Part shown: piece after piece, positions 1-55,100 of the stretch
Numbering within the stretch: the stretch's first letter is position 1
Layout: the number at the start of each line of letters is the position of its first letter
Virus record (IMG/VR): IMGVR_UViG_3300033273_000677
Span: 1 to 64,000 of that record
From: a virus
Length of the DNA stretch: 64,000 nt
Direction: 5' to 3' (one strand)
Notes under the pieces: model-generated
Database searches by the model: none
Seen by the model: the letters and a program-made list of their open reading frames with translations, nothing else
What the model was told of the DNA's origin: nothing
Translations under genes and position numbers: made by a program

Positions 1-130
1 CACCAGGTGATGATGGAGTACCAGGTCCACCAGGACCACCAGGTGATGATGGAGTACCAGGTCCACCAGGTGATGATGGAGTACCAGGTCCACCAGGTCC
101 ACCAGGTCCACCAGGTCCACCAGGTCCAGG
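1..130 (+). repeat. Collagen-type Gly-X-Y coding repeat
   Basis: Imperfect tandem array built from nine-base units encoding Gly-Pro-Pro, with longer units containing Gly-Asp-Asp-Gly-Val-Pro that recur three times. It continues beyond the left edge. The repeat is in frame throughout and is part of the fibre gene, so it is coding and not an intergenic repeat. Confidence 0.9.
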
Positions 131-443
131 CAGTACGGTTTCAGTAGGATATATAAGAGCTTATGGTAGAATGAACAATGGTAAAAGCAGTCCAACAGTA
201 TCTCCAACTGATAAAAATATAAGTAGTATTACTAGAAATAACAATGAATATACAGTTAATTTTACCAATGGGTTTAATAATGCCAATTATGTAGTATCTC
301 TAACCATCGAAAGTGATAATGATCATGTCCTTATGATAAGTCAGAGGAATAAAGATTTCTTTAAATTTCAATGTCATGATCCCGGTAGTGGTAATAATGA
401 TAATCAAACGATTGAAGAAGCTCACATAATTGTTATCAAATAA
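1..443 (+). CDS. Collagen-like virion fibre protein, C-terminal part (5' end outside window)
   Basis: The gene runs in from the left edge; codons are in phase from position 3. The visible part encodes about 42 residues of Gly-X-Y triplets (GDD, GVP, mostly GPP), then about 105 residues of an Asn/Ser-rich C-terminal domain ending at 443. Collagen-like stretches form triple-helical shafts in phage fibres and spikes, so the C-terminal domain is probably the trimerising or receptor-facing tip (inference). The second Pro of each GPP triplet is in the Y position, the usual target of prolyl 4-hydroxylases, and the next gene encodes such an enzyme. The N-terminus and total length cannot be seen. Confidence 0.85.
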
Positions 444-518
444 AATTTTAATATAATCATAATGAAAATAATATGATAAAATAATAACCTAACTAATATA
501 AATCAAAAATGATTTGAT

Positions 519-1115
519 ATGAACAATTTTATTCAAACGATTAAAGTATTAACACCAAAAGAATTAAAACAAGTAAATGAGTATGTTGATACTTTAGATT
601 TTGGTGCATGTAGAATTTTTTCTACAGGAACACCAAAAGTAGATGAAAAAGTTAGGACGAGCACGGGAACATCTTTAGATGATAATTGTGATGTTGCCAA
701 ACTTATGACAAATAGATTAAATGATGCTTTATTGGTTTATAAACAAAGATTAATTGAAAAGGCAAAAGTAATTGATAGTTATCCAGTTCCTGTCGGAATG
801 AATACAACATGTTACAGAGAAGGTATTCAAATCTTAGATTATGCTGAAGGTCAAAGATATCGAGAACATTTTGATGTTGCAACGGATCCAAATAATCATT
901 GCTATCATAGACATATATCAGTAGTTCTCTATCTCTCCAAAGATTTTGAGGGGGGACATACGGCATTTTCGCATAAAAAATATAAACCAAAACCTGGATA
1001 TGCATTATTTTTTCCATCAAATTGGTGTTTTCCTCATCAATCAAAACCAGTAAAGTCTGGAAAAAAACGGGTAGCAGTTACCTGGTACTACGTTAATGAT
1101 ACTAGAAATGGTTGA
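519..1115 (+). CDS. Prolyl 4-hydroxylase-like 2OG-Fe(II) oxygenase
   Basis: 198 residues. The double-stranded beta-helix signature of Fe(II)/2-oxoglutarate dioxygenases is complete: H117-x-D119 (in REHFD), distal H173 (in FPHQSKPV) and K183, ten residues after the distal His. Lys at His+10 is the arrangement in prolyl 4-hydroxylases, where it binds the 2-oxoglutarate carboxylate; many other dioxygenases have Arg. A typical GGHTAF strand follows the first motif. The enzyme would hydroxylate a peptidyl substrate, with CO2 and succinate as co-products. It lies 75 bases after the collagen-like fibre gene on the same strand, so the fibre's GPP triplets are the obvious candidate substrate (inference). 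A weak TATAAATC late-promoter-like box lies at 497-504. Confidence 0.85.
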   Translation: MNNFIQTIKVLTPKELKQVNEYVDTLDFGACRIFSTGTPKVDEKVRTSTGTSLDDNCDVAKLMTNRLNDALLVYKQRLIEKAKVIDSYPVPVGMNTTCYREGIQILDYAEGQRYREHFDVATDPNNHCYHRHISVVLYLSKDFEGGHTAFSHKKYKPKPGYALFFPSNWCFPHQSKPVKSGKKRVAVTWYYVNDTRNG

Positions 1116-2209: not shown

Positions 2210-3226
2210 ATGAAACTAATCGAACGCATCGAAGAACTTTCAAAGACTTTACCAAGACCTTCTTATAGTGAAGCAGATACTAAAGGTAAGTCACTTGTAA
2301 TAAGATGGATGTTAGAAGACGGTTTGACCGTAAATAAAGACATCTATGGTAATATAAGAGGAGTTCTTCCCGGTTCCGGTGCTCCTATTGTTACTGGTTC
2401 GCATACAGATACTGTAGCAACTGCCGGTAAGTATGATGGTGCTCTGGGTGTTTTGGCAGGATTAGAAGCAGCCAGAGCACTGAAAGGTAAATTAAAGCAT
2501 CCATTGGAAGTTGTAATCTTTGATGATGAAGAAAATACAATGGGTGGATCAGTTGGATACTGTTCGAAAAAACCTGATATCAAGGCATTTGTTGAACTTC
2601 ACGTTGAACAAGGACCAGTATTGGATGTTCAGCAATTAGATATTGGCATTGTTCAGGGTATTGTAGGACAGAGAAGGTGCTCTGTTTCTGTATTTGGACA
2701 AGAGAATCACGCAGGAACCACACCAATGAATATGAGAGATGATGCTCTCGTAAAGACTGCAGAGATCATCACTTACATTAATAAGAAAGCACAAGAATGT
2801 GATGGATTGGTTGCAACTGTAGGTGTCCTAGATGTTCATCCAAACGCATTCAGTGTTGTTCCTGGCCGTGTTGATTTTACATTACAGGTACGAGATTTGT
2901 ATGCTGATACAATGGAGAGTTTTGTAGAGGATGTATGTAAGAAGTTTGATTTGAGATATGAAATCTCACACCAGTCAGAACCTGCATTGTGTGATAAAAA
3001 GATTATGGAGTTTATATCAGAATCTTGTGGTGATTTAAAGAGTATTGAGATGCCTTCAAGAGCATCACACGATGCACAGAACTTTACCTTCTGTCCGATG
3101 GGTATGATATTTGTTCCATCAATTGGTGGTATCAGTCATTCTCCAAAGGAAAAAACCACAGATCAGATGTGTATTAATGGGTCAAATGTCTTAACAAATA
3201 CCATCAAAATGATTGATGAGATGTAA
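2210..3226 (+). CDS. M20-family amidohydrolase (allantoate / N-carbamoyl amino acid amidase type)
   Basis: 338 residues. The two-metal peptidase-like centre is visible: H65 (GSHTDTV), D76 (YDGALG), E107-E108 (FDDEEN), H131 (HVEQGP) and H310 (GGISHSP). HVEQGP, ENHAGTTPM (H167, lid domain) and SRASHDAQ are hallmarks of the hydantoinase/carbamoylase branch of M20, which releases ammonia from allantoate, ureidoglycolate or N-carbamoyl amino acids. Family members are usually about 400 residues; this one is shorter mainly at the N-terminus. It follows the tRNA cluster by 17 bases. As a phage gene it would be an auxiliary metabolic gene for nitrogen salvage (inference); the substrate cannot be told from sequence. 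Confidence 0.85.
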   Translation: MKLIERIEELSKTLPRPSYSEADTKGKSLVIRWMLEDGLTVNKDIYGNIRGVLPGSGAPIVTGSHTDTVATAGKYDGALGVLAGLEAARALKGKLKHPLEVVIFDDEENTMGGSVGYCSKKPDIKAFVELHVEQGPVLDVQQLDIGIVQGIVGQRRCSVSVFGQENHAGTTPMNMRDDALVKTAEIITYINKKAQECDGLVATVGVLDVHPNAFSVVPGRVDFTLQVRDLYADTMESFVEDVCKKFDLRYEISHQSEPALCDKKIMEFISESCGDLKSIEMPSRASHDAQNFTFCPMGMIFVPSIGGISHSPKEKTTDQMCINGSNVLTNTIKMIDEM

Positions 3227-3595: not shown

Positions 3596-6500
3596 ATGCC
3601 TCTGAATAAGTTAGATTCTATCATCAAGAATACTGAAGGTCGCATCTTATATGTAAGTCCGGCAGATTTAGACTCTACTGATAGTATTAGTAATCAAGGA
3701 AATTCTCTTGCCAGACCATTCAAGACTCTTCAGAGAGCATTAATTGAATCTGCGAGATTTTCGTATATAAAAGGAAATAGTAACGACGAGACAGAGAAGA
3801 CCACAATTCTCTTGATGCCTGGTGAGCACGTTATTGATAATAGACCGGGTTATACTATTGATAGTACGGGAACAACAACTACTGCTGATGGTTCAGCAGT
3901 AACACCATTTGCTTTAACATTAGACTCTATTTTTGATTTAACACAAAAAGATAATGATCTTTATAAGTTCAATAGTGTAAATGGTGGGGTAATTGTTCCT
4001 CGTGGAACTTCAATCGTTGGTCTTGACTTAAGAAAGACTAAACTGCGCCCACTTTATGTTCCAAATCCAACTGATGATTCAGTACCATATTCTTCTCTCT
4101 TTAGAATTACTGGAGCTTGCTATCTTTGGCAATTCTCAATTTTTGATGCGGATGAATTTGAAACGGTATATACTCAACACAACAATTTTACTGAAAAGTC
4201 TACACCAACATTTTCTCACCATAAACTTACGGTATTTGAATATGCCGATGGTGTTAATGAAGTTGGCAATAAGGGTCTTACGGACCTTCAGATGTACTAT
4301 GCCAAATTATCTCAGGCTTACTCTACCGGTTCTGGTAGACCAGTCGATACTGATGATGTATTCCCAACAAACGATTTAGGATTTAATCCTAGAAGACCGG
4401 AATTTGAAATTGTAGGTGCATTTGCTTCAGATCCTATTACAATTTCATCGATTCAAGCAGGTGATGGATTAACTCCTACTAGAAGAATTAAGGTTACCAC
4501 ACAAGAAGAACACGGATTGAATGTGGGAACACCTATTCTTATTAAAGGTGTATCTGATAATTCTTATAATATTTCTACCAAAGTTACATCAATTGATGAA
4601 GATAATGATAAAATCTTTTTCTATAATATAACTAAAAATCCTGCACTTATCAATCCCGGACCATTTACAAGTGAAGGTACTGTAACCATTGAGACTGATA
4701 CAGTTACTGGTGCTTCTCCATATATCTTCAATATTTCCATGCGATCTGTATGGGGTATGCAGGGTATGCACGCCGACGGAAGTAAGGCAACTGGTTTCCG
4801 TTCAATGGTTGTTGCTCAGTTTACTGGTGTTTCACTTCAAAAAGATGATAGAGCATTTGTAAAATATAATGAGTCAAGTAGAACATACGAGAATACATTT
4901 TATGCTGCAGGAACAACACAAAGTGGTTCTGAACTATCCTCAAAATCATCATCAACTGGAACAGTTTATCATTTAGATTCTGAGGCAATTTATCGTCAGG
5001 GATGGGAACAATCACATATCAGAATTAGTAACGATGCAATTGTTCAGGTAGTTTCTGTTTTTGCCATTGGTTATAACAAGCATTTTGTTGCCGAAACTGG
5101 TGGTGATGCTTCAATCACTAACTCAAACTCTAACTTTGGTCAGTTATCTCTGGTCTCCGATGGATTTAAGAAAGAGGCATTTGCGAAAGATGATAAGGCA
5201 TTCATCACTCATATTATTCCACCAAGAGCAATTGAATCAACGGAAGAAGATATTGATTGGTTGACTCTTGATCAGGATGCACCAAATACTTCAACCAAGT
5301 TATATATCTTTGGATTTAAGAACAAACAAGTAAAACCACCAATTCTTACTCAAGGATATCGTGTTGGTGCGAAAGTAAATGATAAACTTTTCTTAGGGTC
5401 TAACTCTGCAAGCATTGTAATGCCAAGTGGAGCATCTTCATTTGAAGAGTATTCTGTCGGTGCACCGAGTAATAATTTATTCACAGTTTCTAACAGTGGA
5501 ACTCATAATTTAACAACTGGTGAAAAAGTTATCATTATTAGTGACGATGGAGATTTACCAGAAAATCTGAGAACAAATACAGTTTATTATGCAATTGTTC
5601 CAAATAATACCACATTCAGACTTGCCGCATCACTGGCAGAAGCAACTTCAGATAGTCCAATTGAAGTATATGGTGGAACAAACTTAAAAGTTATTACGAG
5701 AGTCTCTGATAAAGAATCTGATGATATTGGTCATCCAGTTCAATATGATGATTCTGCGGATCAGTGGTATATTACTGTAAGTGCGACCGGAAATACTATT
5801 ACTTCACAGTTAACAGGATCTGGTGCCACTGATGAACCAACTATAATCAAGAGAATTCAAGATAATAGAAGTCTCGATGAAAAGATTTACAAACTTAGAG
5901 TTGTAGTTCCAAGTCAACTTACAAACGCAAAAACACCAGAATCTGGATTTGTTATTCAAGAATCAAGTTCAACTGGTTTTAGAGTAGATACTGATGCTAC
6001 TGCCGTTAGTATTGGAACGACTGATTATGATTTTAATCGTAATCTAAGAATTATCAAAAGTTGCTCTTTCTCATCACCAACAGTTACCGTCGTTTCGGAA
6101 CTTCCACACAACTTAAAGACTGGTGATTCTATTATTATTAGAAACGTAACAGACTCTACAAATACTGAAGGATTAATTGATAAGGGATATAACGGAACCT
6201 TTACTGTAGTAACTGTTGTTGATGATTTAACATTTACATATGTCACATCAACAACACCAGGGACATTTACAAATAATGTAAATACAAGAACTACAGCACT
6301 TCCAAGATTCGAGAGAAATAATCTTCAAGAAAATTTTTATATTTATAGAAATGAAGTTATTTCAGAATATGAAGAGAATGATAAAAATGGTGTATATCAC
6401 ATTTATGCATTAAATGCAAACAATGCGATTCAAGATCAATTTACAGATCTAAAATATAGTCAAAATGTAACAGATCTGTATCCACAACTTGACAGAGATA

Positions 6501-8980
6501 ATGTCAATGATAATCCTAATAGTGCAACAACTTATGCATTAAGATCTCCAATTGGAGAAGTTCAAACAGACGATCTTAAGAAAAGTATTACAAGAGAAAC
6601 AACAGATAAGTTATTAACAAGTTTAGGTATTGGCCTTGATGTTTCATCAGTTACAAATCCAACCTCAACATCACCAACAATTGTTTTTGACAGAAATCAT
6701 AGTTTTGCAGGTATCATAACTGGAACACAAGCACAAGGAACAGCAGGATTTAGTGCAGGAACATATCATAATGTAAAAATTTATAATAATAGTGGATTAA
6801 CGACTTGGAACGGTGCAACCGCAAAAGTTGTTGTTTCTGCGGGAACAAATATATCTTCTGTGGAAATAATGAATGGTGGATCTAACTATTCTGCAGGAAC
6901 ATATTACTTAGATACCAGTGTTATTGGAACAGGAAATAACAATGCATTTACTGTCGTAGCAAGTGGTCTTACACCTGGAGTAGGTCAAGCTATTCAATTT
7001 ACTGGCATTGGAACCGGAACAGATACATATCACCGTATTACTGGAGTTACTGCGAGAAATAGTGTTTCTATTGCGAGAACAACAGGAGATCCTGTAATTA
7101 CTTCTGATAATTACGGATTTGTAGTTGGACCATCTGTTGCATTTACTGCAGATTCAACATCTGGAATTGTAACTGCAACAGGTCATGGATTAGTGGTTGG
7201 TAATAAGTTTAGAGTCATTGATAGCAGCAATAATAATGCAGGAGACTATATTGTTGGTGTATCCACATTAACTAATAAATTTGAAGTTAGTGGTGGTATT
7301 GGAGCAGCATCTGGTTTCATTATGAAACATGGATTATCATCTAATGAAGGTGTTTCGGATAGAACAAATGAAAATTTACAGGCAAGAGGAGTTACTATCT
7401 TTGATGGTGAGATATTAACACTCACCGAATCTTCAGGTATTACAGATTCTACAACATCATTCTCTGTAAGTGGCGCTCAGGGTGGAGTCATTGAAAGATT
7501 CCCACTTGGAACTTACATTCAAGTTGATGAAGAGATCATGAGAATCTCAAGCAGTAGTCTCAGTGGAGTTCCTGCTGATAAAATTACAGTAATTCGTGGA
7601 GCACTTGCAACTAGGGCAACTTCTCATTCAGTCAATTCTGTAATTAAGAGAATCAAAGTCCCTGCGATTGAATTCCGTAGACCATCAATTCTTCGTGCTT
7701 CCAGTCATACGTTTGAATATCTTGGATATGGTCCCGGTAACTATTCTACTGCACTTCCACAAGTTCAGGATAGAACTCTGACTGAAAGAGAAGAATTTTT
7801 ATCACAGGCACAAGAAAGATCTAATGGTCTTGTTGTTTACACTGGCATGAATAATAAAGGTGACTTCTTTATTGGTAATCAGAAGAAATCGTCCGCAACT
7901 GGTGAAGAAACTAACTTTGATATTCCGATTTCAACTGTTACTGGTGAGGACCCAGCAAGATTAAGTGCTGTATTTGATGAAGTTATAATCAAAGAAAGAT
8001 TAGTCGTAGAAGGTGGTAAGTCAAATCAAGTATTATCACAGTTTGATGGTCCTGTTACCTTCAATGAAAAGACAAAATTTGATGAACCTGTCAAAATTTC
8101 TTCAAATAAAGACTCTACAAGTTCAGCATCTGGAGCACTTGTAGTAACTGGGGGTATTGGAGTTGGTAAGACCATCACCGCATCAAATGTAAATGTCGGT
8201 AATATCACCATCAAAGGATCTACGGGTGAAGTATCAACGACAAGTGGTGACTTAAACATCACTTCTCTCGCAGGAAATAAAGTAGCAATTAAAACAGACA
8301 CTACTATTACAGGTGATGTATCAATCACTGGTGATACTACAATCACTGGTGTTACCACAATCACTGGTAATACGGATATTAATGGAAACTTAGATTTAAC
8401 TGGATCTGCTTCTACTGAAGGTAGAATTAGTGCCAATTATCTTGATGTTCCAAATATTTCTCCTATTGGAAGTATTATGATTTGGCCAGGTACAATCAAT
8501 ACTTGGCCAACGACAAATTGGAGACAATGTAATGGTGCTACATTATCTAAGACAACCTATTCAGACTTGTTTGCCGTTATTGGATACACTTATGGTGGTT
8601 CTGGTAACAACTTTAAACTTCCCAATTTGCAAGGTAAATTTGTGACTGGTATTGGTAATGACACTTGGAACAATACTTTGAATGAAACTGGTGGTAGAAC
8701 TGATGCAGTACTACCACAACACAAGCATGATATTAATGATCCAGGTCATCATCACGATTTCACTGCCGCAAGACAATTTTCTAATACAGAAAGTGGTGAT
8801 GGTGATATAGAATGCAAAAACTTTAATAATTTAGAAACTGGAAATGAAACAACTGGTATCTCGATACAGAATGTTGATTCTGATGATACAAATGCGAATA
8901 TTATGAGCAATTCAGATAAATTATCTGTAGCAAACCTACCACCATATACGGCACTCTATTACATCATAAGAATTAAATAA
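3596..8980 (+). CDS. Large tail fibre/short-fibre-like structural protein with tail collar domain
   Basis: 1794 residues. The N-terminal part (about 15-60) has the SLARPFKTLQRALIESARFS segment common in cyanophage structural proteins. The middle is long, Ser/Thr/Gly/Asn-rich beta-structure. Around 1565-1605 lies a run of six-residue TITGDT-like repeats typical of a triple beta-helix. From about 1620 there is a tail-collar domain (PIGSIMIWPG, WRQCNGATLS, LPNLQGKFVTG), then a histidine-rich QHKHD...GHHHD segment like the metal-binding region of T4 gp12. The fold and location suggest a trimeric receptor-binding fibre. It is preceded by a late promoter. Confidence 0.9.
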   Translation: MPLNKLDSIIKNTEGRILYVSPADLDSTDSISNQGNSLARPFKTLQRALIESARFSYIKGNSNDETEKTTILLMPGEHVIDNRPGYTIDSTGTTTTADGSAVTPFALTLDSIFDLTQKDNDLYKFNSVNGGVIVPRGTSIVGLDLRKTKLRPLYVPNPTDDSVPYSSLFRITGACYLWQFSIFDADEFETVYTQHNNFTEKSTPTFSHHKLTVFEYADGVNEVGNKGLTDLQMYYAKLSQAYSTGSGRPVDTDDVFPTNDLGFNPRRPEFEIVGAFASDPITISSIQAGDGLTPTRRIKVTTQEEHGLNVGTPILIKGVSDNSYNISTKVTSIDEDNDKIFFYNITKNPALINPGPFTSEGTVTIETDTVTGASPYIFNISMRSVWGMQGMHADGSKATGFRSMVVAQFTGVSLQKDDRAFVKYNESSRTYENTFYAAGTTQSGSELSSKSSSTGTVYHLDSEAIYRQGWEQSHIRISNDAIVQVVSVFAIGYNKHFVAETGGDASITNSNSNFGQLSLVSDGFKKEAFAKDDKAFITHIIPPRAIESTEEDIDWLTLDQDAPNTSTKLYIFGFKNKQVKPPILTQGYRVGAKVNDKLFLGSNSASIVMPSGASSFEEYSVGAPSNNLFTVSNSGTHNLTTGEKVIIISDDGDLPENLRTNTVYYAIVPNNTTFRLAASLAEATSDSPIEVYGGTNLKVITRVSDKESDDIGHPVQYDDSADQWYITVSATGNTITSQLTGSGATDEPTIIKRIQDNRSLDEKIYKLRVVVPSQLTNAKTPESGFVIQESSSTGFRVDTDATAVSIGTTDYDFNRNLRIIKSCSFSSPTVTVVSELPHNLKTGDSIIIRNVTDSTNTEGLIDKGYNGTFTVVTVVDDLTFTYVTSTTPGTFTNNVNTRTTALPRFERNNLQENFYIYRNEVISEYEENDKNGVYHIYALNANNAIQDQFTDLKYSQNVTDLYPQLDRDNVNDNPNSATTYALRSPIGEVQTDDLKKSITRETTDKLLTSLGIGLDVSSVTNPTSTSPTIVFDRNHSFAGIITGTQAQGTAGFSAGTYHNVKIYNNSGLTTWNGATAKVVVSAGTNISSVEIMNGGSNYSAGTYYLDTSVIGTGNNNAFTVVASGLTPGVGQAIQFTGIGTGTDTYHRITGVTARNSVSIARTTGDPVITSDNYGFVVGPSVAFTADSTSGIVTATGHGLVVGNKFRVIDSSNNNAGDYIVGVSTLTNKFEVSGGIGAASGFIMKHGLSSNEGVSDRTNENLQARGVTIFDGEILTLTESSGITDSTTSFSVSGAQGGVIERFPLGTYIQVDEEIMRISSSSLSGVPADKITVIRGALATRATSHSVNSVIKRIKVPAIEFRRPSILRASSHTFEYLGYGPGNYSTALPQVQDRTLTEREEFLSQAQERSNGLVVYTGMNNKGDFFIGNQKKSSATGEETNFDIPISTVTGEDPARLSAVFDEVIIKERLVVEGGKSNQVLSQFDGPVTFNEKTKFDEPVKISSNKDSTSSASGALVVTGGIGVGKTITASNVNVGNITIKGSTGEVSTTSGDLNITSLAGNKVAIKTDTTITGDVSITGDTTITGVTTITGNTDINGNLDLTGSASTEGRISANYLDVPNISPIGSIMIWPGTINTWPTTNWRQCNGATLSKTTYSDLFAVIGYTYGGSGNNFKLPNLQGKFVTGIGNDTWNNTLNETGGRTDAVLPQHKHDINDPGHHHDFTAARQFSNTESGDGDIECKNFNNLETGNETTGISIQNVDSDDTNANIMSNSDKLSVANLPPYTALYYIIRIK

Positions 8981-10588: not shown

Positions 10589-11212
10589 ATGAATTTAAGT
10601 GATCTGATATATGTCAAAGAAAATGTATTAGATCACGAGTTTTGTCGTGAATTAATATTAAAATTTAATAGTGATGATAGGAAACGACCAGGAAGTATTG
10701 GTTCTACTGGTGCAACAGGAGAAATTATATCTAATGTAAATTTGAATTTAAAAAAATGTTTAGATCTTAATATAACTGGTCTTAAAGAGTGGAACAAAGA
10801 AGATAAAGTATTATGTAAGTCTTATAATAACAATGTACAAAATTATTTTCAATATACTGATAAATTTTCTCCTAGAACAGAAAATAATGAAACAGTATTT
10901 GGAAATGGAATTTGTAATTTCAGAGATCGTGGATATTTAATAAGATCATATGAAAAATCAGATGGTTACTTTAAGTGGCATAATGATTTTTCATTAGATA
11001 AAAAATATGGTCTTAGAATGTTAACTCTTATTTGGTATTTGAATGATGTAGAGGAAGGTGGAGAAACTGAATTTGTTGATGGAACTCTTGTTAAGCCAAA
11101 AACAGGGCAATTATTAATATTTCCAACATCATGGTATATGGCACATAGAGGAAAAATGCCAATATCAAATAAAAAATATATTATTACAAGTTGGTTATAT
11201 GGTTATCAGTAG
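10589..11212 (+). CDS. Second prolyl 4-hydroxylase-like 2OG-Fe(II) oxygenase
   Basis: 207 residues. H131-x-D133 (KWHNDF), the EEGGETEF strand, distal H186 (MAHRGKMP) and K196 at His+10 form a complete Fe(II)/2-oxoglutarate site of the prolyl 4-hydroxylase type. It is clearly diverged from the copy at 519-1115, so the two are not a recent duplication. Like that copy it follows a fibre gene, here by 45 bases, which hints at hydroxylation of virion proteins (inference). Near residues 35-45 it carries a short GSIGSTGATGE run resembling collagen triplets, possibly coincidental. Confidence 0.82.
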   Translation: MNLSDLIYVKENVLDHEFCRELILKFNSDDRKRPGSIGSTGATGEIISNVNLNLKKCLDLNITGLKEWNKEDKVLCKSYNNNVQNYFQYTDKFSPRTENNETVFGNGICNFRDRGYLIRSYEKSDGYFKWHNDFSLDKKYGLRMLTLIWYLNDVEEGGETEFVDGTLVKPKTGQLLIFPTSWYMAHRGKMPISNKKYIITSWLYGYQ

Positions 11213-35913: not shown

Positions 35914-38900
35914 ATGATACAAACTGGAATTGAATCTAGAGTCAAGATTCAGGATGTAATTTCCAATCAATTACCAGAATTTCTTTTGGATGAAAGTCCA
36001 AAAGCAATAGATTTTTTAAAGCAATATTATATTTCTCAAGAATATCAGGGAGGTCCTGTTGATCTCATCGATAATCTTGATCAATATTTAAAAGTAGATA
36101 ATTTAAAACCGGAAGTTATTGTTGATAGTGTATTATTAGATAATGATGTAACATCTACTGATACTATAATTGAAGTTTCTAGTACTAAAGGATTTCCGAA
36201 TGAGTATGGTCTTTTGAAAATCGATGATGAGATCATTACTTATACAGGTATAACATCCAATACATTCACTGGATGTATTCGTGGTTTTAGTGGAATTTCA
36301 GAATTTGATCAAAATTCTAATAGTAAAGATTTAGTATTCTCTACTTCAACTGCTACATCTCATAAAAGTAGTGCGCCTGTACAAAACCTAAGTTCTTTAT
36401 TCTTAAAGGAGTTTTATATAAAATTAAAATCAACTTTTACTCCAGGATTAGAAAATATTTCTTTTGTAGAAGAAATTGATGCTGGCAATTTTATAAAGAG
36501 AGCAAAAGATTTTTATTCATCAAAAGGAACTGATGAAGCGATAAAAATTCTCTTCAAAGTTATTTTTGGTGAATCTCCATCTATTATAAATTTGGAAGAT
36601 TATTTAATTAAACCATCTTTTGCAAATTATGTTAGAAGAGAGATCGTAATTGCAGAAGTTGTATCTGGAGAACCTTTAAAAATTATTGGTGAAACTCTCA
36701 TAAAAAATACTGATGCAAATACAACAGCATCCATCTCTGCCGTAGAACCATTTTCAAGAAAAGGAAAAACTTTTTATAAAATCGAGCTGTATATCAGCAA
36801 TGATGGTAGGTCTTCAGTGGAGGGTAATTTTGAAATTACCCCAAATACAAAATTAATTGAAAGTGCATCAGTAGGAGATAATATTTTAACAGTAGATTCT
36901 ACTTTAAGTTTTCCAGAATCAGGAACTTTAATTTCTGGTAACAATACAATTTCTTATACAGGAAAAAGTGTAAATCAGTTTTTTGGATGCACGGGCATTA
37001 ATACTGCAGTAGCAAAATCATCAAATATTAGATCTAATGATACTTATTTTTCATATGAAAATGGAGATGTTACCAAAAAAGTAGAATTAATAATTTTTGG
37101 AGTAATTAGTGATTTCAAACAAGAAAGTGAAAACTTCAAAGCAAGTGAAGGTGATTTAATTTCTATAAAAAATATCGGAGATAAAATTAAAAATAATAAT
37201 TCAAATTGGAAAGAAATTTTTGCTAATTCTTTAATATACAATACCAGTACAAGATATGAAATATCAAATAATGATTCTAATAAATTATCATCTACTATTG
37301 ATAGATCAAGTTTAAAAATAGGTGATGAAGTTGAAATATTGGAAAGAGAATCTGAAATTGTAGTTACTTCTTCAAATCCAGTATATATTACAAATATTGA
37401 TAAATCTCAAAATACTTTAACCTTAGAAAATAAACCAAGTTTAAATGCCAATACAAAGTATGACATAAGAAGAAAATTAAATAAAACCAAATCTTCTGGA
37501 TCTACATTTGAATCCGATTCATTATTATCAGATGTGCTTAATCTTTATGTTGATAAAGATGAGTATGCATATATTGCATCCAATTCTTTACCATCCAAGA
37601 TTGTTGAATTATCTAATGGTACTGTAATAGATAATTATCGTTTAGATGTTCAAGAAAGTGTTAAGTCAGTAACTATTTCCAACCTTTCAAATTTAACAGA
37701 TTTATCTGATGAAGTATATAATACTTTTGAAGTTGATAATGTACCTTTTTTAACTGGAGAAGAAGTATTCTATTCTTCTGAAGGAGAAACTTTAGTTGGA
37801 TTAACTACAGGAACATATTTTGTAAAGAAAATATCAAATAAAAAATTCAAATTATATGGATCTCAATCTACAATAAGTTCTGGAAGTAATTTGACATTCC
37901 AAGTATCAAATTCTGGATTAGGAACTCACACTTTTATATTAAATTCCCAAAAAGAAAATGATCTTGGAATACAGAAAATTTTAAGAAAATTTCCATTAGA
38001 AAAAAATATTAAAGAGGGTTCTGGAACACTAACAGTTCCTGGAAAAACTGGAATGTTGATTAATGGTGTTGAGATTGATAACTATAAATCTGATGATGCA
38101 GTATATTTTGGTCCTATTAATGATGCAAATGTTTTATTTGGTGGGGAAGACTATGATGTAATTAATCTGCCACGCATTGTAGTTTCTGATAGTACTGGTA
38201 GTGGTGCAAAAATTCAACCAGTAATCAGTGGTAAATTTGAAAAAGTATACGTAGATACTCAAGATTATGATATTGATAAAATTGCCTCTATTGATATTTC
38301 TGGTGGAAATGGAAGTGGTGCTGTTATTGAACCAGTATTAATTACCAGACCCAGAGAGGTTTTATTTAATGCCGATGAATTTTCTAGTGGTGGTGGAGTT
38401 AATGAAACAACAAATCAGATTGTATTTTTAACAGACCACAATTTTGTTAATGGTGAACAAGTAATTTATAATTCATTGGGAAATACTGCCATAAAAATTG
38501 GCACATCGATAAGCAACGAATTTATGCCCGATAATTCAACATATTTTGTTGAAGTAACGAACAATAAAGCAATAAAATTATATTTTAATTTAGAAGATCA
38601 ACAATCAAAAACAAATCCTGTTGGAATTTTTACAGGATCTCTGGGAAGTCATAAATTTTCAACTGTTTCTTCAAAAAAACAAATTGATAGTATTAAAATT
38701 ATTAATAGTGGAGAGGGATATACTAATAGAAAACTAATTGTTAGCCCGACAGGAATATCTACAGTAAACAATTTAGTTAATTTTGTTAATCACGGATTTA
38801 ATGATGGTGAATTAGTATCTTATGATTACGAAACAACTCAAATTTCTGGAATTTCTAGTGCAAATCAATATTATGTTTTAAAGGTTGATAACGATTCTTT

Positions 38901-41900
38901 TAGGTTATGCAATGCTGGTGTTGGAGGAACTATTACCTCAAATTATGAAAGATTGAATTATGAAAAATTCAACAGTATTGGAAGTGGAGAGCAATATTTT
39001 AAATATCCAGATATTTCAGTTTCTATTCAATACACTACTACCGGAATTGGATCAACCACTCAAACTTTTGAAAATTTAGTTCTTACTCCAGTGGTAAAGG
39101 GAGAAATAATTGACGCATATGTATATGAGTCTGGAACTGGATACGGATCGACAATTATAAACTATCAAAGAAAACCAACAGTAACTTTACAGAATGGAAA
39201 ATCTGCACAATTAACTCCAGTTGTTGTTAATGGTAGACTTACAAAAGTTTCAATTAGTTATCAAGGTACAGAGTATTATTCTGTTCCCGATTTGATAGTT
39301 TCTGGAACAGGAACTGGGGCTGAATTGAGAGCAATAATTAATGATAGTGGACAAATTAGTGAAGTCAAGGTTCTCAATACTGGTATTGGATATTCTTCAT
39401 CAAATACGAGTATTGAAGTTATTCCATCAGGAAAAAATGCTTTTATTGATTCACAAATAAGAAAATTAACTATTAATAATAATCATACAAAATTCTCTAC
39501 TGGTGAAGTTTTATTGAATGGTAAAGATAAACTTCAATATTCAGTTTCCAAGTATTTTGAATCTTTAAGAAATTCATTCTTAGAGAATGCAAATTCACGA
39601 TCTGAAATTATTGGTTGGGCATATGATGGAAATCCAATTTATGGTCCATATGGATATCCCAATCCTGCGATACCTTTAGGAGTAAAAACACTAGAATCTG
39701 GATATACTCTCGATTCTTCAAATGTTGTAGATAGACCTTCTGGATTTGATGATGGATTTTTTGTTGAAGATTATAAATTTGATAATAGTGGTGATTTAGA
39801 TGAATATAATGGAAGATATGAAAGAAATGATGATTTTCCAAATGGTGTTTATGCATATCATGCAACAATAGACGAATTCCCATATTTCATAGGAAATAAG
39901 TATAGATCCGAACCAGTTTTTGATTCTAATTTAGATCAATCATTTGATTTCAATAATTCTAATTTATTAAGAAATACTTTACCATATAAGGTATCAGAAA
40001 AAGGTGCAGACTATGATTTTGTAAATGAAATTAGTGATGTTTTAGAACAAAAAATAAAAGTTGTTTCTGTTACTTCAGGTCCAATAGAATCTTTGGAGAT
40101 TCAGAGTGCTGGAGACAAGTTTAAAGTCGGAGATAAATTGATTTTTGACGAAACTAATACCTCTGGAAGTGGATTAGATGTTGCTGTAGAATCATTAAAA
40201 GGGAAAAATATTACAAATATAGAAACAACTTCAACTTCATATCAAAATTCCGTCTTTACTTGGAATTCTTCGGATAAAATAAAGGTTTCAATATTACCAA
40301 ATCACAATCTCTCTAACTTAGATTATGTTACTATATCTGGATTTTCTACAAACCTTTCAAAATTAAATGGAAGTAATAGAATTTCTGTTCCTTCATATAA
40401 TAATGCAACTTGCCTATCTACAATAACATCATCATCTGCAGGTTTTACAACAGAAATTTATGTAGCACCGATTCCGGATCAAATATCAGTTGGTAGTAGT
40501 ATCAGTATTGGAACAGAAACCCTGAGAGTTCTTGGTGTATTTAAGAATGAAAATATCTTAAGAATAGAAAGAGGATCAACTGGAATATCACATACAGTTG
40601 GTACTGCAGTTTCTTTCTTGCCAGACTTCTTTACTATCGATAAGTCAGTAGACAAATTTGAATCTTCTACAAGCAACAAAGTATTCTTTAACCCTAGAGA
40701 ATCTATAGGAGTTTCAACTATAAGTGGAGTTGGATATAGTACTTCATTTGTTTTTGGAAATATTACTGTAAACAAAGATATTCCATCTAAGAGTATTAAT
40801 ATTAATAATCACTCATTTACAACAAATCAACGTGTTGTATTTACTAATAATGGAACGAGTATAACTGTTTCTACTGATGGTGTAAATGTATCCAATATTG
40901 ATACAAATCTTTTTGTCATTAATAAAAATCCAAATTTAATTGGATTGAAGACATCTATTGATGGAGATGAGTTATTCTTCCATTCTAATGGTGATGACAA
41001 TGATCTCTATTCATTAGAATCTAATCCTACACAAGTTCTTGGAAATGTTGATAAAAGAGAAGTGTCAGTTTTTGTTTCTACTGCACATGAACTTAGAAAT
41101 GGAGATTTTATAACTTTAGATGTTCAACCAAATCTTTCTGTAGGAATAGGAACTTCTACAGCAGTTCGTGTTGTCTATAATTCTCAAATAGGCAATATTA
41201 CAGTAAATCCTATTGGATTCAATTCTACAGGTATCAATACATCTACTAATGAATTTACCATAAACAATCATGAATTTGAAACTGGTGATAAAGTCCTTTA
41301 TGAAGACATTGGATATGGAGAGTATTTTGTATTTAAGATTGATAATAATAAATTTAAACTTTGCGAAACTTATTTTGACTCTCAGCAAAACCCTCCAACT
41401 ACTGTAAGTTTTGCGTCCACAGGAACTGCTTCGCAGTCAATATCATTAATTAATCCCAAATTGAATCCAACTAAAAATAATAATTTTGTATTTGATCTTT
41501 CCGATTCTAGTTTGACTGGATATAATTTTAGGATTTATGAAGACTCCAAATTTAATAATGAATTTATTTCTGTAGGTTCAACAAATCAATTTACGATAAC
41601 CAAAACAGGGACAATTGGATCTGCTTCAGCATCCTTAACATTGAACTACAATTCAAATATTCCAGAAAAATTATATTATACATTAGAAAAAGATGGCACG
41701 ATAGTTAAATCTGACACTGAAGTTGAGAATTATTCTACTATTGAATATAAAGAAAGTGTATATAATAATACCTATAAGATAACTGGAATAGGCACAACGA
41801 CATTTAATTTAAATATTACCGAAAAACCAGAAAGATCTTTTTATATTTCAACAGAATGTGATGTTTTAAATTATTCAACATCATCAAGTTTTGCTTCCGG

Positions 41901-44900
41901 TCCAGTAAATTCATTAAATGCAATATCTTTTGGATCTGGGTACAAATCTTTACCAACTTTAAAATCGACAAATTCGATTTCTGGTTTCGATCTACTCGTA
42001 AATCCACTGTCAAACTCAATTGGATCTGTAAAAGAAAAGGAAATCTTAAATAACAAGTTTACCTATTCCTCAGATAAAACACTCAGACCTAAAGCAAACG
42101 TCTCTCCAACTATCGTATTGGAGGATTTAAATACGATAGATCAAATATTGGTAACTAATAGTGGTGAAGGGTATACAACTGCACCAACCCTAAAACTTGT
42201 TGATTCTGTAAGTAGAAATGTAATAGATTCCGGAATATTGAAACCAATTTTAACAGGATCTGCAATTTCCTCGGTTAATGTTGAGTCTAAACCAAAAGGT
42301 TTGCCAGATGAAACTGTAGAAATATTTGCGACCAATAATACTAATGGAGTTGCAATTGTAAGTGTAGAATCATCAAACTCTGGTATTTTTACATGCACAA
42401 TATCAACACCAATAACTACAGGAATTTCTGCATTTACAGTTCAACCTTTTAATGTTGGTGATAAAGTTTATGTTGAAGGAATTCAAAAATTTAGCAGTAC
42501 TGGTGATGGATTTAATTCTGAAGATTATGGATTTAAGTATTTTGAGGTAACAAATATAAACACTAGTGGAGTAAATGATACTGTTACAATTAGTGTATCA
42601 GGACTTACTACAAACACTGGTATTGCAAAAACTGTTCAGGATTATTCTGGAGTCTTAATTAATAAAAATGATTATCCTCAGTTTGAAATAACTCAAAAAT
42701 TATCAGAATTTTTTGAAGGAGAAAGTTTATCTTCAAATGGAATAATCAGAGACTTAACGGTTGCTAAAAATATTGAAAATCAATTAAAAGTTTCTGGATT
42801 ATATGATCTATCTGTTGGAGAAGTCATCACAGGAACCGAATCTGGAACCGTTGCAACGATAAAATCACTGAATGTTAATGAAGCATTTTTTGATGTTGAA
42901 TTTTCCAATAGAAAAAATATTGGATGGAGAGATCAAGTTGGTAAACTAAGTGAAGATTATCAAGTAATTCCTGACAATGATTACTATCAAAATTTATCTT
43001 ACTCAGTAAAGAGTTCTATAACTTATAAAGATCAACAATCACCTGTAGAAAATTTAGTTCATACTAGTGGATTGAAAAATTTTGCGAATACTGGAATTTC
43101 TTCTTCTGTAACTGCAGGTATCACTACAACTAAAGAACAATTTACAATCATTTATGACATTGTTGATGATCGTAGAGTAGATACAGTTAATAATTTTGAT
43201 AATGTTGTAGATGTAGATGTTGTAAATTCAACATCCAAATTCCTAAAACTTGAAAATAGGAATCTTACCAACTATGCAGAATTGAGAAATCTTAACGTAT
43301 TGGAAATTGATGATATTAGTGATCAATTTTCCAATTCTGAATCAGAAAATACTGAATTTTTATCTATTGATGAAGTTGATAATATAACATATCAAAATTA
43401 TTTGTTTAGAGTTACCAGTAGTGACAACAGTGAAATACAGTTAACTGATCTAACAATTTTAAGTGATGGAATTGAGACTGTTATTGTTGAAAATGAATCG
43501 TTATATAATTCAAACACCCAATATGGAAGTTTTGAATTATTTGAAAATGAATTTGATGAAACTTTCCTAAGATTTATTCCTGTTGATCCTTTCAATACTG
43601 ATTATGATGTCAAATTAATTAAGCAATCTTTCAATACAAGTTTATCTGGAGTTGGAACACAACCAGTTGGATTCGTAACTTTAACCGGATCTGTTGACAT
43701 AGAAAATAGCACTGTTGGTTTAGGAACTACCACAATAATCTCCGTAGATTCTAATAAATTTAAATCTCTTTATATTAATGCACAAGTGACTAATACCATC
43801 ACGGATGATATGAATTATGTAAGATTATATGTTGCACATGATGGAACAAATAGTTTTATGTCAGAATATTACATTGACAATACTCTCAGTTCATCAACAG
43901 GTGATTCAATAGGAACATTCTATTCCAATTTGAGTAGTGGAATTTTATCAATAACACACGAAAATACCACATCAAATACAATCAATATAAAAACAAACAT
44001 CGTTGGTTTTGGAACAACTACATCCGGAATTGGAACATATAGATTTAAGTCATCAGATCAATTGGATGGACAAGAAAGAAGTGTAGTTTATAATTCAAAT
44101 TATCAATCTACAGTATCTTTAGCATCCACAACCATTCATACTTTAGATAAGACATTATTTAATGCATCAAAATCTTTAGTACAAGTCAGTATAGGTGCCA
44201 GTAAAGCACTTCATCAGGTTATGATGTTATTTGATGGAAATGATGTTTATACTCAACAGTTACCTTTCCTTTCAGTAGACAGCATTACTAATACTCTTGA
44301 CACTTTATCTGGTATCGGAACTTTTGGTGGAGAAGTATCTGGATCTAATTTAATTCTAAAATTCTATCCAGACAACCAAAATCAACAAGTTGATATTGAA
44401 GTATTTAATAAGTCTCTTTATTCGCAGGTAGATTCTATTAATAATTATCTAGATTTGTCTTATGGTGCTGTAACTGAAAGTATTGATGAAAGATTCTATA
44501 ATTCAATTAATGGTGATAGAATCAATAGAACTAATTTTAAACTCAATAGCAAACTCAAACCAATTTTCTCAAAAGAATTTAATCCAAATTCTGTAGCATT
44601 AGCACAAACAACAGGAATATTTACTATTCCAGATCATTTCTTTATGACTGGTGAAGAATTAATTTATACTCCAAACTCAACCATTGTTGGTGTTGGTACT
44701 AGTGCAATGATGACCAGTGCAACTGATGTCTTGCCATCTACAGTATATGCAATTAAAATAACAGAGGATACTTTCAAAGTTGCAATAACAACTACAGCAG
44801 CTCAAAGTGGTATTGGAATAACGTTTACTTCTTTAGGTGAAGGAAATGCTCATAGATTTACTATGAAAGAAAGAAATACTAAGTGTTTAATTAGTGTTGA

Positions 44901-49106: not shown

Positions 49107-52100
49107 ATGGCACAAAAAACCGACTTAAATATCAACCCATATTATGATGACTTTGATGAGGATAAAAACTTTTACAAAGTTTTATTTAAACCAGGATTTC
49201 CAGTTCAAGCTAGAGAACTAACCACTCTTCAGTCTATTTTACAAAATCAAGTAGAGTCTTTTGGAAGTAATATTTTTAAAGAAGGATCCATGGTTATACC
49301 TGGAGGTATAACTTTTGATAATGACTATTCCGCAGTAAAATTAAATTCTACCAATTTAGGAATAGATGTTTCCCTCTATATTAAGAATTTTATTGGAAAA
49401 ACGATAACGGGACAAAGTTCTGGTGTAACTGCTAGTGTTAAAAATGTAGCACTTACCAGTGAGTCTGATTTGGTAGAATACTTAACAATATATGTAAAAT
49501 ATTCTACGGCAGGTAACGATCCTGAAATATCTGCATTTGAGGATGGAGAATTATTAATTGCTAATGAGAATGTAACATATGGAAATACTACAATTTCTTC
49601 TGGTACAGCATTTGCATCATTGATTGCATCTAATGCAACATCTACAGGTTCTGCATTGTCTGTTGATAGTGGAGTTTATTTTGTAAGAGGAACGTTTGTT
49701 GATGTTCCAAAACAAACTCTTATATTAGATTATTATACGAATACACCATCGTATAGAGTAGGATTTAATATAAAAGAAGAAATTATTAATGCCAAAGATG
49801 ATGATTCTTTGTATGATAATGCAAAGGGTTTTACAAATTTTGCAGCACCGGGTGCAGATAGATTCAAAATTTCATTAAATTTGACTAAAAAATCATTAAC
49901 AGATTTTAATGACACTGATTTTATAGAAATTTTTAGATCTGATGATGGAAAGATCAAGAAAGTAGTTGATAAAACTGTATATAATATTATCAGAGATTAT
50001 ATTGCAGAAAGAACATTTGACGAGTCAGGACATTATACGGTTGATGAGTTTGAATTAAAAGTTTTAAACTCATTGAATGATAGAATTGATAATGATGGTT
50101 TATTCTTAGAAAATGAAACGACAGAAGAAGGAAATATCCCAAATGATGATTTAATGTGCGTTCAGGTATCACCTGGAAAAGCATATGTTGCTGGATATGA
50201 TGTTGAGATAGATGGAACAGCAACAATTGATGTAGAAAAACCAAGAGATACTCAAAACGTATCATCTATCAATGTTCCTTTTGAAATGGGACATCTTTTG
50301 AGAATTAATAACGTTGAAGGTGCGGCAGAAGAAAAAGCAGAAATTGAATTAAAGTCTCAGTTTGAAGAAGACGGTGGTGGAAATGTTATTGGTAAAGCAA
50401 GAGTATATACATGTAACCTGACAGATGCCGCATATTCTGGCGATGCGACTGAATGGGATTTATACCTTTATGATATTCAAACGTATACTAATGTTGTATT
50501 TAATAGAGCGGTAACAACTACAGAAATTCCAACAACATCTTTCATAAAAGGAAAGAGTAGTGGAGCAAGTGGTTTTGTAGTCTTAGGAAAAAATGCTAAT
50601 AATGTTGACATTTATCAGACATCAGGTACTTTTGTTGCCGATGAGCAGTTAACAGTTAATGGTATCGATGCTTCATTATCTTTGAAGAGTTTTACAGTTT
50701 ATGGTATTAGAGATATTAAGTCAGTAGAACAAACTGGATTGGTAGGTACTCCTTTTAAAGGAGATGCTGTCTTAACTAAGAAGAAAATCAGAGGAATTAC
50801 TGAAGCAAATTTTGTAAGTTCTACAGGTGTCTTCACAAGTCCAGGTAATCTTTTTGTTGGTATTAAGACTGGTGACATTATTAGTTATCAAGTATCTGGA
50901 AAAAGTGATCCCACTTACAATAGAGTTACTCAGGTAGATGGAAATCTGACATCAATAACAGTTGATCCAATCGGTGGAAACAATGTGTCTGGAGTTTATG
51001 ATAAAGATAAAGGTGGTAACGGAACTTATAACATTAGACTTGCAGTTCCAGAACTGAGGAATAATGAAAATGCTTCTCTGTTTGCAAGACTTCCAGATTC
51101 TAATATTTCATCGGTTGATCTTTCTAATTCACAACTATCCATAACTCGTCAAATTACTGGAGAGTCAACAGATCCAAATGGAGTATTGGCATTTGATTTA
51201 CCCACTGGTATCACTAGTGCAACATATCAAGCATTTGATCAAGAAAGATATTCTGTACACTTTAATAATGGTACAATTGGAACAATAAATTCTGATACTT
51301 TTAGTTTATCTGGAAATACCGTAACTATTACTGGATTATTAGCAGGTCAAACAGGTAATGTTACTGTAAACACCACTCTTAAGAAGAATGGTATTAGAAG
51401 TAAAATTAAAGAATACAATAGAAGTGCTATAAGAATTGTAGATCTTTCTACACTTGCTCAATCTGGTGCAGCAACTAGCAATTCGATCAATGATGGATTG
51501 ACTTATAATCCATACTACGGACTGAGAGTTCAAGATGATAAAATTTCATTGAATGTTCCAGACGTTGCTAAAGTTCTTTCAGTATATGAATCAACAAATA
51601 CTGCCGATCCTATTTTAGATAGAATTCAATTCTCATCAATATCTCAAGTAGATACTGATGCAATTATTGGTGAGGATATTGTTGGATCCGATAGTGGAGC
51701 TTTGGCAAGAATTGTTCAAAATTCATCTTCAGGAGCAACACCAGCAATTCCTACAAACAATATTGGTATTGTTTATTTAAATGATCAAACATTTTCTGTA
51801 GGAGAAACTGTAACCTTTAAGGAATCTGGAATAATTTCTACAGTAGAAGCAATAACTTTAGGCAAGTATAAAAATATAACAAATAACTTTAGATTAAATA
51901 AAGGTCAAAAAAGACAATATTATGATTTCTCAAGATTAGTTAGAGTTGGAACTCAAGTTCCAGAAAGGAGATTATTAATTGTATATGATCATTATACAGT
52001 TCCAGCATCAGATACTGGTGATGTATTCACTGTTCTTAGTTATGATGCGGACAGATTTTCTGAAGATGTCCCACTTATAGGTGAGAGACGTTTCGGAAGA

Positions 52101-55100
52101 GTCAGAGCTACTGATACATTAGACTTTAGACCAAGAGTTCAGAATTTTACTGTAACCACATCATCTCCATTTGACTTTTCTTCAAGAAACTTTGGAACCG
52201 AACCACAATTCATATTGAAATCTGGAGAGGGGTCATTAATTGGGTATGATTTTTATCTTCCTAGAATTGATAGAGTATATCTCAATAAGTTTGGAAATGT
52301 TATTATTAGAAAAGGCATCTCTTCCGAAGAACCAGTTCCACCAGAGAATGAAGATACTGATTTGATGCAATTGGGACAAATTAATCTTCCTGCTTATTTG
52401 TATAATGTCGATGATGCTGAAATAAGCATGATAGACAATAGAAGATATACTATGAGAGATATTGGTAATATTGAAGATAGGGTTGAAAATTTAGAAAGAG
52501 TCACATCATTAAGTTTATTAGAACTCGGAACAGAATCTCTAAGAGTTGAAGATTCTGAAGGGAACAATAGATTTAAGAGTGGAATATTTGTAGATGATTT
52601 TGATGATGATTCTTTGTCTGATAATGATTTAACAACTGCTAACATTATTGATGGAGAACTGAGACCAATTGCATTTAGAAATACTTTACAGCAAAAATTA
52701 GTTCCAGCTGTAGAGCAACCGATAAGTTCGTTTGATTCTGAGGAAAATTATGATCTATTAGATCCAAATGTACAAAAAACAGGCAATGTAGTTACATTGA
52801 AATATGACTCCGTTGATTGGTTGAATCAAAGTTTTGCCACTAAAGTTGAAAATGTAAATCCATTCCATGTTATAGAATTTAATGGAATAGTTCAATTGAA
52901 ACCAAAAAGAGATAATTGGGTAAGAACTATTAGACTTGCACCTCGTATAATTCGAAGAACTAAACGTAGAACGAGAAGAAGAGAAGTTCGAGGACCACGT
53001 AGAAGAATTGGATTTGATAGAAGAGTAAGAGAACGTAGATCTGTTAGTAGGTCTACAAGAACAGTTCTTGTTTCTTCAGGAAGAGAAAAATATATTCGTT
53101 CTAGAAATGTTGCTTTCTTTGGAAGATTATTCAGACCTCTTGCAAGACACTATCAATTCTTAGACAATCACAGCAACTTAGATTTTATTCCAAAACTGAT
53201 TGAAATCGCAAACTCCAAGACTTTGAAAAATTATGGTTCTTCTAATGGTGCCTTCCGGACAGGAGAAACAGTAAGAGTTTATAAAGGAGGGAAGAGAATA
53301 GGAACATTTAGATTGGCAAAATCAAATCACAAAAAAGGAAAGTTCAATTCTCCAAAATTTACTTATACTACAAATCCATATGTACCATCAGAGTCTATAC
53401 CTTCTGGATATAGTCAATCATCCAAAACAATAAATATTGATTTAAATGCCTTGGCATCAGAAGCACAAGGTAGTTTTAGTGGATATGTTGAAAAAGGTGC
53501 AAAAATTGTTGGTCAAACCAGTGGTGCAATTGCTTATGTCAAAGACTTAAGACTTATTTCTGATGTCAATGGTACATTATTTGGATCATTCTTCATTAAA
53601 AATCCACACAGAAATCCAGCACCAAATCCAAGAATTCGTACAGGAAAGAAAACATTTAGATTAAGTAGTAGTAAAACCAATCAAACTCCATTACCAGGTA
53701 GTAAATTAATCTCTGCCGGTGATGCAACTTATACAGCAAGAGGTACATTCCGTGAATTGCAAAGAGTAACTACTGTAACTACAACTATAACAAGAACAAT
53801 TACCCGTAGAACGGATCCTCTGGCACAAACTTTCACTGTTGGTAGGGATATTGAAGCACCCGATTTTAGTGGTGACAATGATGATGACAATGGAGTATTC
53901 TTAACAGAGGTAGATTTGTTCTTTGCATCAAAACCAAGTGGTGAAGAACCTATTACAGTTGAGATAAGATCAGTTGAACTTGGAATACCAACTTTAACTA
54001 GAATTGGTGAAGGAAAAACTTTATCTCCCAGTGAGGTAAAAATTTCGGCAAATGCAAAAACTCCAACAAGAGTGACATTTGATCAACCAATTTTCCTTCC
54101 ACCAGGTCAAGAATATGCATTAGTATTGCTTGCACCAAATTCGGATCAATATGAAGTTTGGACTGCAAAGATGGGACAAAAAACTATTGAGACTAAAGAT
54201 CTTCCAAATTCTCAAGCAATAAAATATTCCGTACAATTTGCAATTGGAAGTTTATTTAAATCACAGAATGGTTCAACATGGACTCCTGCTCAAAAACAGG
54301 ATCTCAAATTCAAATTATATAAAGCAAAATTCACTGCAAATACTGGCATTGTACATTTTGGAAATCCTCCACTCGATTCTAGCAATGGATATGTTCCAAC
54401 ACTTGAAGAAAATTCACTAACAGCATTGCCAAAAAATGTAACTCTTGGTATCACTACCATTAGTTCTAGTGATTCTTTAGTTGGTATCTTAACTGCTGGT
54501 AGAAGAATTGCAGGTGCAGGAAATAGTTTTGGTACTATTGTTTCTACAGGAAGTAGTGCTTCTACTCTTACTGTAACTAATGGTGGTTTGAATTATACAA
54601 ATCGTACTAATTCTGCCACAACTAATGTCTTTGGTAGTGGTAGTGGATTGACAGTTGATATTACTCAGACTGCTGGTGTTATAACCGGAATTACTATCAA
54701 TAATCCAGGAAATGGATATGTGACTGGAGACGTTGTTTCAATTGTAAATGGTTCGGGAGAAAGTGGTAGAGGTGCTGTTATTACAGTTACTGCTAGTGGT
54801 GATATCGATACTTTATACTTAACAAATGTTCAAGGTTCAATTCCAACGGGAGATCTGGTTTACTATGATACTGACACCACCAAAGTTTCTCTTGCCAATA
54901 CTGATGTCCTAACTTCAACTGAAGACGGTGGAATTTTCTCTGGAAATTATCTACATGTCGATCATTTCAATCATGGAATGTATGCAAATAATAATAAGTT
55001 GGAGTTGCATGATGTTGCTTCCGATTTAGCACCATCAAAATTAACTTCACAACTTCTTGCCACAACTGGTGGTACTGGAACAATTCAAATCCAAAATACC

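Follow-up and report, generated by a model that had tools for sequence, protein, structure and literature searches.

Our analysis of a 64,000-nucleotide stretch of virus DNA (bases 1-64,000 of the 64,710-base IMG/VR record IMGVR_UViG_3300033273_000677; hereafter the window) points to a prolyl 4-hydroxylase (P4H), encoded in a phage tail-fibre module, that probably acts on the collagen stalks of the phage's own fibres and would stabilise their triple helix. The evidence comprises a gene pair at the start of the window, which is also the first base of the phage contig, and the distribution of the oxygenase among related loci. In the pair, a collagen-like fibre gene is followed by an Fe(II)/2-oxoglutarate (2OG) oxygenase with the fold and residues of the P4H type; among the loci, a single oxygenase subfamily is associated with collagen-like, proline-rich fibre genes. 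The source of the window is probably a cyanophage, since the isolate nearest to it by the phrog_529 tail-fibre gene is Synechococcus phage S-SKS1 (85%).

Fibre gene and oxygenase of the window

The following features are relevant to the comparison:

3..443, + strand: collagen-like tail-fibre open reading frame (ORF), 3' part only, open at its 5' end, 146 amino acids visible (PF01391)
6..131, + strand: collagen stalk of 14 Gly-X-Y triplets, with proline at Y (Y-Pro) in 10 and at X (X-Pro) in 8 (PF01391, 29.5 bits)
132..440, + strand: non-collagen C-terminal domain of about 103 amino acids, probable fibre tip, with phmmer relatives in other phages
519..1115, + strand: Fe(II)/2OG oxygenase of 198 amino acids, predicted P4H (PF13640, 9e-17)
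3596..8980, + strand: conserved tail-fibre gene phrog_529, the syntenic anchor for the locus comparison

A sequence-only reading of the window had described a GPP-rich Gly-X-Y frame with an oxygenase 75 bases behind it, and this arrangement was recovered: the triplets run without interruption from the start of the first ORF, its stop lies at 443, and the oxygenase ATG at 519. The visible part of the fibre is collagen-like in that every third residue of a long segment is Gly and in exceeding the cut-off for Pfam Collagen (27.2 bits), of which it is the sole match in the whole record; elsewhere in the window no ORF has a Gly-X-Y run longer than 4, and 4 is also the maximum in 50 codon-shuffled windows. 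The 5' part of the gene, with its start, full length and N-terminal domain, is missing because the contig start cuts the gene. The C-terminal domain is related to tip-like ORFs of other loci (phmmer, L059 4.1e-7, L038 2.9e-5; also L033, L045 and others) and has a weak Gp53-like_C match. Its match to the receptor-binding domain of the cyanophage Pam1 tailspike was weak and non-significant (E 0.025), and no PDB match below 0.001 was found for its model (pLDDT 68.7). A pattern scan of IMG/VR found no close relative of this domain, distant ones being found by profile comparison within the fetched loci.

The closest PDB sequence relatives of the oxygenase, which is matched by Pfam 2OG-FeII_Oxy_3, are Bacillus anthracis P4H (2.4e-8) and Chlamydomonas P4H1 (about 1e-5), and the alignments with both share an R-T-S-x-G motif N-terminal to the iron motif. 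All nine PDB sequences at E<=1 are prolyl hydroxylases, including prolyl 3-hydroxylase 1; one of them, 3gze, is titled 'Predicted protein' in the sequence table and is an algal P4H in the fold-match listing. Ten residues are identical in all 81 aligned relatives: the iron triad H117/D119/H173, K183 at distal His+10, R46 and S48 of the R-x-S motif, R100, E101, R131 and W189. Lys at distal His+10, where the 2OG carboxylate is bound, is typical of collagen-type P4H, Arg being found there in PHDs and lysyl hydroxylases. Several of the invariant positions presumably correspond to peptide contacts in the algal P4H.

The AlphaFold2 model of the oxygenase (pLDDT 89.0) gave as top fold matches PHD-type enzymes, the Pseudomonas P4H bound to EF-Tu (4iw3; Z 18.6, root-mean-square deviation [rmsd] 3.6, 176 residues aligned), the viral enzyme vCPH (5c5t; Z 18.4, rmsd 2.6, 163 aligned, 25% identity) and an algal P4H with peptide (3gze; Z 17.8, rmsd 2.7, 169 aligned, 28% identity). 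Close behind these prolyl hydroxylases came PiuC chains and a putative oxygenase from Shewanella, the whole group spanning Z 18.9 to 17.1. Sequence matches, invariant residues and model together support the P4H assignment, which had also been made, with the same iron and 2OG residues, in the sequence-only reading. Identification of the oxygenase as PiuC (NCBIfam PRK05467) was rejected at 33.1 bits against a cut-off of 143, despite the annotation of its P-SSM2 relative.

Distribution of the oxygenase subfamily

The relatives of the oxygenase form a discrete subfamily: with a hidden Markov model (HMM) built from seven members, subfamily proteins scored at least 216 bits and all other oxygenases found at most 76. 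The 172 relatives in IMG/VR yielded 80 loci that were kept. Named phages with the subfamily are of at least five kinds (P-SSM2/P-SSM5, two marine single-cell phages, ACG-2014f and S-CAM7; the first 55 of 211 records), and in every one of these the gene belongs to the tail-fibre cluster and has collagen-like ORFs no more than about 8 kb away. Among 84,980 bacterial and archaeal genomes, the subfamily was found on only three contigs (one from a Pelagibacter single-cell genome, two from a Euryarchaeota metagenome-assembled genome), where the surrounding ORFs resemble a phage tail module.

The window encodes a second 2OG-Fe(II) oxygenase (10589-11212; PF13640, 4.4e-14), adjoining a helicase gene; it scores 59.5 bits on the subfamily HMM and therefore belongs to another subfamily.

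Co-occurrence with proline-rich collagen

Control loci were fetched by the phrog_529 anchor, as best matches of two related queries, and sorted by presence of the subfamily. The main set comprised loci with at least 4 kb upstream, 60 with the enzyme and 67 without it, and ORFs were counted anywhere in the fetched locus. A collagen-like ORF was present in 59 of the 60 loci with the enzyme vs 20 of the 67 without, so that the oxygenase is not frequent in phages lacking a collagen-like gene; frequent occurrence there would, according to the sequence-only reading, have refuted its proposal. The sole enzyme-bearing locus without such an ORF, L048, lies on a contig of 7.6 kb that leaves 5 kb upstream. 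The contrast was as strong for proline: at least three Y-Pro were found in 46/60 vs 6/67 loci, and at least five prolines at X or Y in 56/60 vs 7/67. Pooled over whole loci, Y was proline at 1417 of 7578 sites with the enzyme and 74 of 2483 without; the corresponding counts for X were 2646 of 7578 and 51 of 2483. In collagens of loci without the enzyme, the Y position is mostly Gln or Lys. The GC content of the two groups is equal (0.370 with and 0.369 without the enzyme).

When only the 6 kb next to the anchor were counted, Y-Pro occurred in 30/37 loci with the enzyme and 3/65 without, proline making up 28% and 3% of Y sites, respectively; the difference persisted among collagen-bearing loci only (30/34 vs 3/11). 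The Y-Pro association gave p=7e-16 for the subfamily and p=0.025 for other 2OG oxygenases in the same stretch, these Fisher values being too small because many loci are near-copies. The other oxygenases showed some association with Lys at Y (p=0.0075).

The criterion for collagen in the 6-kb set was altered in the course of the work. A strict Gly-X-Y run gave collagen in 20/29 loci with the enzyme vs 2/30 without; after the interrupted GPP repeats of L016 had been seen, a density of at least eight G..G sites per 60 amino acids was used, giving 26/29 vs 2/30 for collagen and 24/29 vs 0/30 for Y-Pro. After a second tail-fibre scan, Y-Pro stood at 28/34 vs 5/68, and the move of three loci with the enzyme beyond 6 kb (L215, L227 and L234) from 'without' to 'with' yielded the 30/37 vs 3/65 given above.

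In whole records of contigs of at least 15 kb (40 enzyme-bearing and 40 others, out of 82 and 74 loci), Pfam Collagen was above its cut-off in 30 and 7, respectively. Three of the seven collagen records without the enzyme (G025, G038 and G019) had 921 triplets in five ORFs, a single one of them with proline at Y; of the remaining four, G039 had no scorable run, and G013, G017 and G018 lay outside the Y count. The nearest isolate, S-SKS1, has neither the subfamily enzyme nor collagen. Collagen was present in two of eight complete isolates without the subfamily (S-8S56 and S-CAM9), with Y-Pro at 1/60 and 1/63 sites.

Collagen-like fibres with Lys at Y (GQKGEKG) were observed in six loci without the P4H subfamily (L203, L204, L213, L216, L226 and L251). 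Three of these (L216, L226 and L251) also encode another 2OG oxygenase in that stretch, which may be a second modifying enzyme.

Gene neighbourhood

Direct adjacency of fibre and enzyme is not general: a collagen ORF ends within 150 nucleotides of the enzyme ORF in 14 of the 60 loci. Among the ORFs directly upstream of the enzyme (82 scanned of 100 listed), 21 matched Collagen, 21 Phage_tail_APC and 7 Peptidase_S74, with a few carbamoyltransferases, glycosyltransferases, other 2OG oxygenases and a halogenase. Phage_tail_APC is a tail assembly chaperone family and Peptidase_S74 a fibre chaperone, and judged by these matches the neighbourhood resembles a cassette for assembling and modifying fibres. 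In the sister contig L009, whose enzyme is 90% identical to that of the window, the gene directly upstream is not collagen, and GPP repeats occur further upstream in a 1,915-amino-acid fibre; a subtilase-like ORF, named by eye, lies between this fibre and the enzyme (L009:7334-9241). In ACG-2014f, a glycosyltransferase gene overlaps the P4H gene (L007:6917-8008), and S-CAM7 has a glycosyltransferase gene nearby.

Proposed role and alternatives

During infection, the enzyme would use O2, Fe(II) and 2OG to hydroxylate prolines of the Gly-X-Y repeats in the phage's own fibre stalks. The most likely substrate would be the stalk chains before trimerisation, and a passage of PMC8968730 places proline hydroxylation before trimerisation in animal collagen chains. 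Hydroxylation would stabilise the triple helix that bears the fibre tip. We infer that the enzyme modifies proline, possibly at both X and Y, that it does so in the nearby fibre, and that the fibre gains stability.

Several observations, in addition to the inflated Fisher values, weigh against this role or limit it. Fold alone does not tell a collagen P4H from HIF-type PHD, EF-Tu-type P4H or PiuC-like enzymes. Fewer than five prolines at X and Y together were found in 4 of the 60 enzyme-bearing loci, and two of the three collagens on the Pelagibacter and Euryarchaeota contigs have almost no Y-Pro. Conversely, Y-Pro occurs in loci without the subfamily (3/65 within 6 kb, 6/67 over whole loci), most clearly in L258 (19/60 sites); of the three exceptions at 6 kb, L258 and L251 carry another 2OG oxygenase gene beside the collagen gene, and for L213 none is listed. 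The collagens of S-8S56 and S-CAM9 are rich in X-Pro (20/60 and 30/63 sites) without the subfamily, an argument against taking X-Pro as a sign that the enzyme is present. Finally, 14 of the 60 enzyme-bearing loci have fewer than three Y-Pro, ten of these having at least nine X-Pro. Strict Y-specificity is for this reason unsupported; the sequence-only proposal that the phage hydroxylates its own fibre is supported as to the enzyme type and its co-occurrence with collagen, and unsupported as to targeting of Y alone. Action at both positions, as in B. anthracis P4H, would fit loci rich in X-Pro and poor in Y-Pro.

Alternatively, the main target in the collagen fibre might be Lys, Thr, Asn or Asp of the triplets, in some cases hydroxylated so that a glycosyltransferase can act there. 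The fibres of enzyme-bearing phages indeed span GPP, GPT, GAQ and GQKGEKG repeats, Lys-rich repeats occur in 9 of 37 enzyme-bearing loci, and the glycosyltransferase genes of ACG-2014f and S-CAM7 lie in the same cluster. However, repeats with Lys at Y are not associated with the enzyme (9/37 vs 8/65, p=0.17), whereas proline is, and the Lys at distal His+10 in all 81 relatives follows the P4H pattern and not the Arg of lysyl hydroxylases. We consider a non-proline target unlikely.

The contribution of shared ancestry, or of joint transfer of a tail-fibre cassette without any enzyme-substrate relation, was assessed on a quick tree of 102 anchor (phrog_529 fibre) proteins. The control loci, being best matches of two related queries, leave room for such an effect. 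On this tree, the enzyme label requires 19 changes and Y-Pro 15. Comparison of Pagel-type independent and dependent models gave likelihood ratios of 53.2 for Y-Pro (p 8e-11) and 43.1 for collagen (p 1e-8), p-values that are rough because some rates sit at bounds; with the same rates at bounds, the dependent model fits enzyme loss as absent while Y-Pro is present. Supported independent changes are few: nine independent pairs on supported branches gave 5.1 for Y-Pro with the enzyme and 0.3 for the opposite, which is not significant (sign test, median p 0.0625), and pairs for collagen presence alone carried no significant signal (2.4 vs 1.0). The direction of the association is clear, the strict independent-pair test being underpowered. 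Moreover, between L009 and the window the enzyme is conserved (90% identity), but the gene directly upstream is not the same. Co-occurrence by descent or joint transfer alone thus appears improbable.

Least probable of all is hydroxylation of a host or phage protein unrelated to the fibre, by analogy with the EF-Tu prolyl hydroxylase and with the place in the fibre module due to hitch-hiking, for although 4iw3 is among the best fold matches and some enzyme-bearing loci are poor in collagen proline, the other oxygenases in this part of the locus are much less closely associated with collagen and its prolines, and the dependent model, within the limits of its rates, fits no enzyme loss in the presence of Y-Pro.

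Beyond the proposed role of the enzyme as a fibre prolyl hydroxylase, we regard as evenly balanced the broader view that a discrete, phage-confined P4H subfamily evolves with its substrate. Marine phages would gain and keep stalk proline only while carrying the hydroxylase, and would otherwise use Gln or Lys triplets; hydroxyproline-stabilised collagen would then be a virion material of prokaryotic viruses.

Other features of the tail region

The fibre/oxygenase pair lies in a phage tail region with tRNAs, an M20-type peptidase gene, a small phrog_4134 gene and the large phrog_529 tail fibre. A tRNA-Leu(TAA)-like gene (1912-2194), which ARAGORN did not list, is interrupted by a group I intron (Rfam Intron_gpI, 66.5 bits, 1935-2124); both exon parts are matched at about 94% in isolates such as S-CAM4 and Sf-FS3, where a short tRNA-Leu is annotated. 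The M20-family peptidase gene occupies 2210-3226 (PF01546, 1.7e-25). Two very large ORFs were found at 35914-47541 (3,875 amino acids) and 49107-56312 (2,401 amino acids).

Comparison with known systems

Virus-encoded P4H is already known from an algal virus. A search of the open-access literature, with most subscription papers and all preprints outside its scope, found no paper linking a phage P4H to phage collagen fibres and no description of a phage subfamily going with proline-rich collagen stalks; no claim of priority is made. In a passage of a 2022 virome study, P4HA is counted among abundant viral auxiliary genes and the viral use of prolyl 4-hydroxylase is called cryptic (PMC9301287). 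Our results suggest a concrete role for viral P4H, and for this phage group the word seems to fail.

Among cellular enzymes, the closest solved sequence relative is B. anthracis P4H (3itq/5hv0), which, according to a passage of PMC8968730, acts on PPG peptides at both positions, X and Y, and prefers Y; unlike the window enzyme, it functions without a phage fibre. Chlamydomonas reinhardtii P4H1 (3gze, 2jig) has the RTSTGT motif in common with the window enzyme, in addition to the fold, and differs in being eukaryotic and crystallised with a Ser-Pro peptide, not a collagen peptide. Like the window enzyme, vCPH of Paramecium bursaria chlorella virus 1 (5c5t) is a virus-encoded P4H-type 2OG oxygenase, and a title given in a reference list (Eriksson, 1999) announces evidence for 4-hydroxyproline in viral proteins. 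However, vCPH belongs to a virus of eukaryotic algae, and the window enzyme to a tailed phage, inside a tail-fibre module beside collagen stalks.

The nearest parallels are PSSM2_031 of P-SSM2 and its homologues in ACG-2014f and S-CAM7, which belong to the same subfamily (40-52% identity) and occupy the same position ahead of a phrog_529-type tail fibre, with collagen-like fibres nearby. Genes of this type are annotated as PiuC, ferrochelatase or generic oxygenase and, in one S-CAM7 record, as putative prolyl 4-hydroxylase; unlike the role proposed here, no function in the fibre is annotated. P-SSM2, S-CAM7 and ACG-2014f are existing isolates that carry the enzyme.
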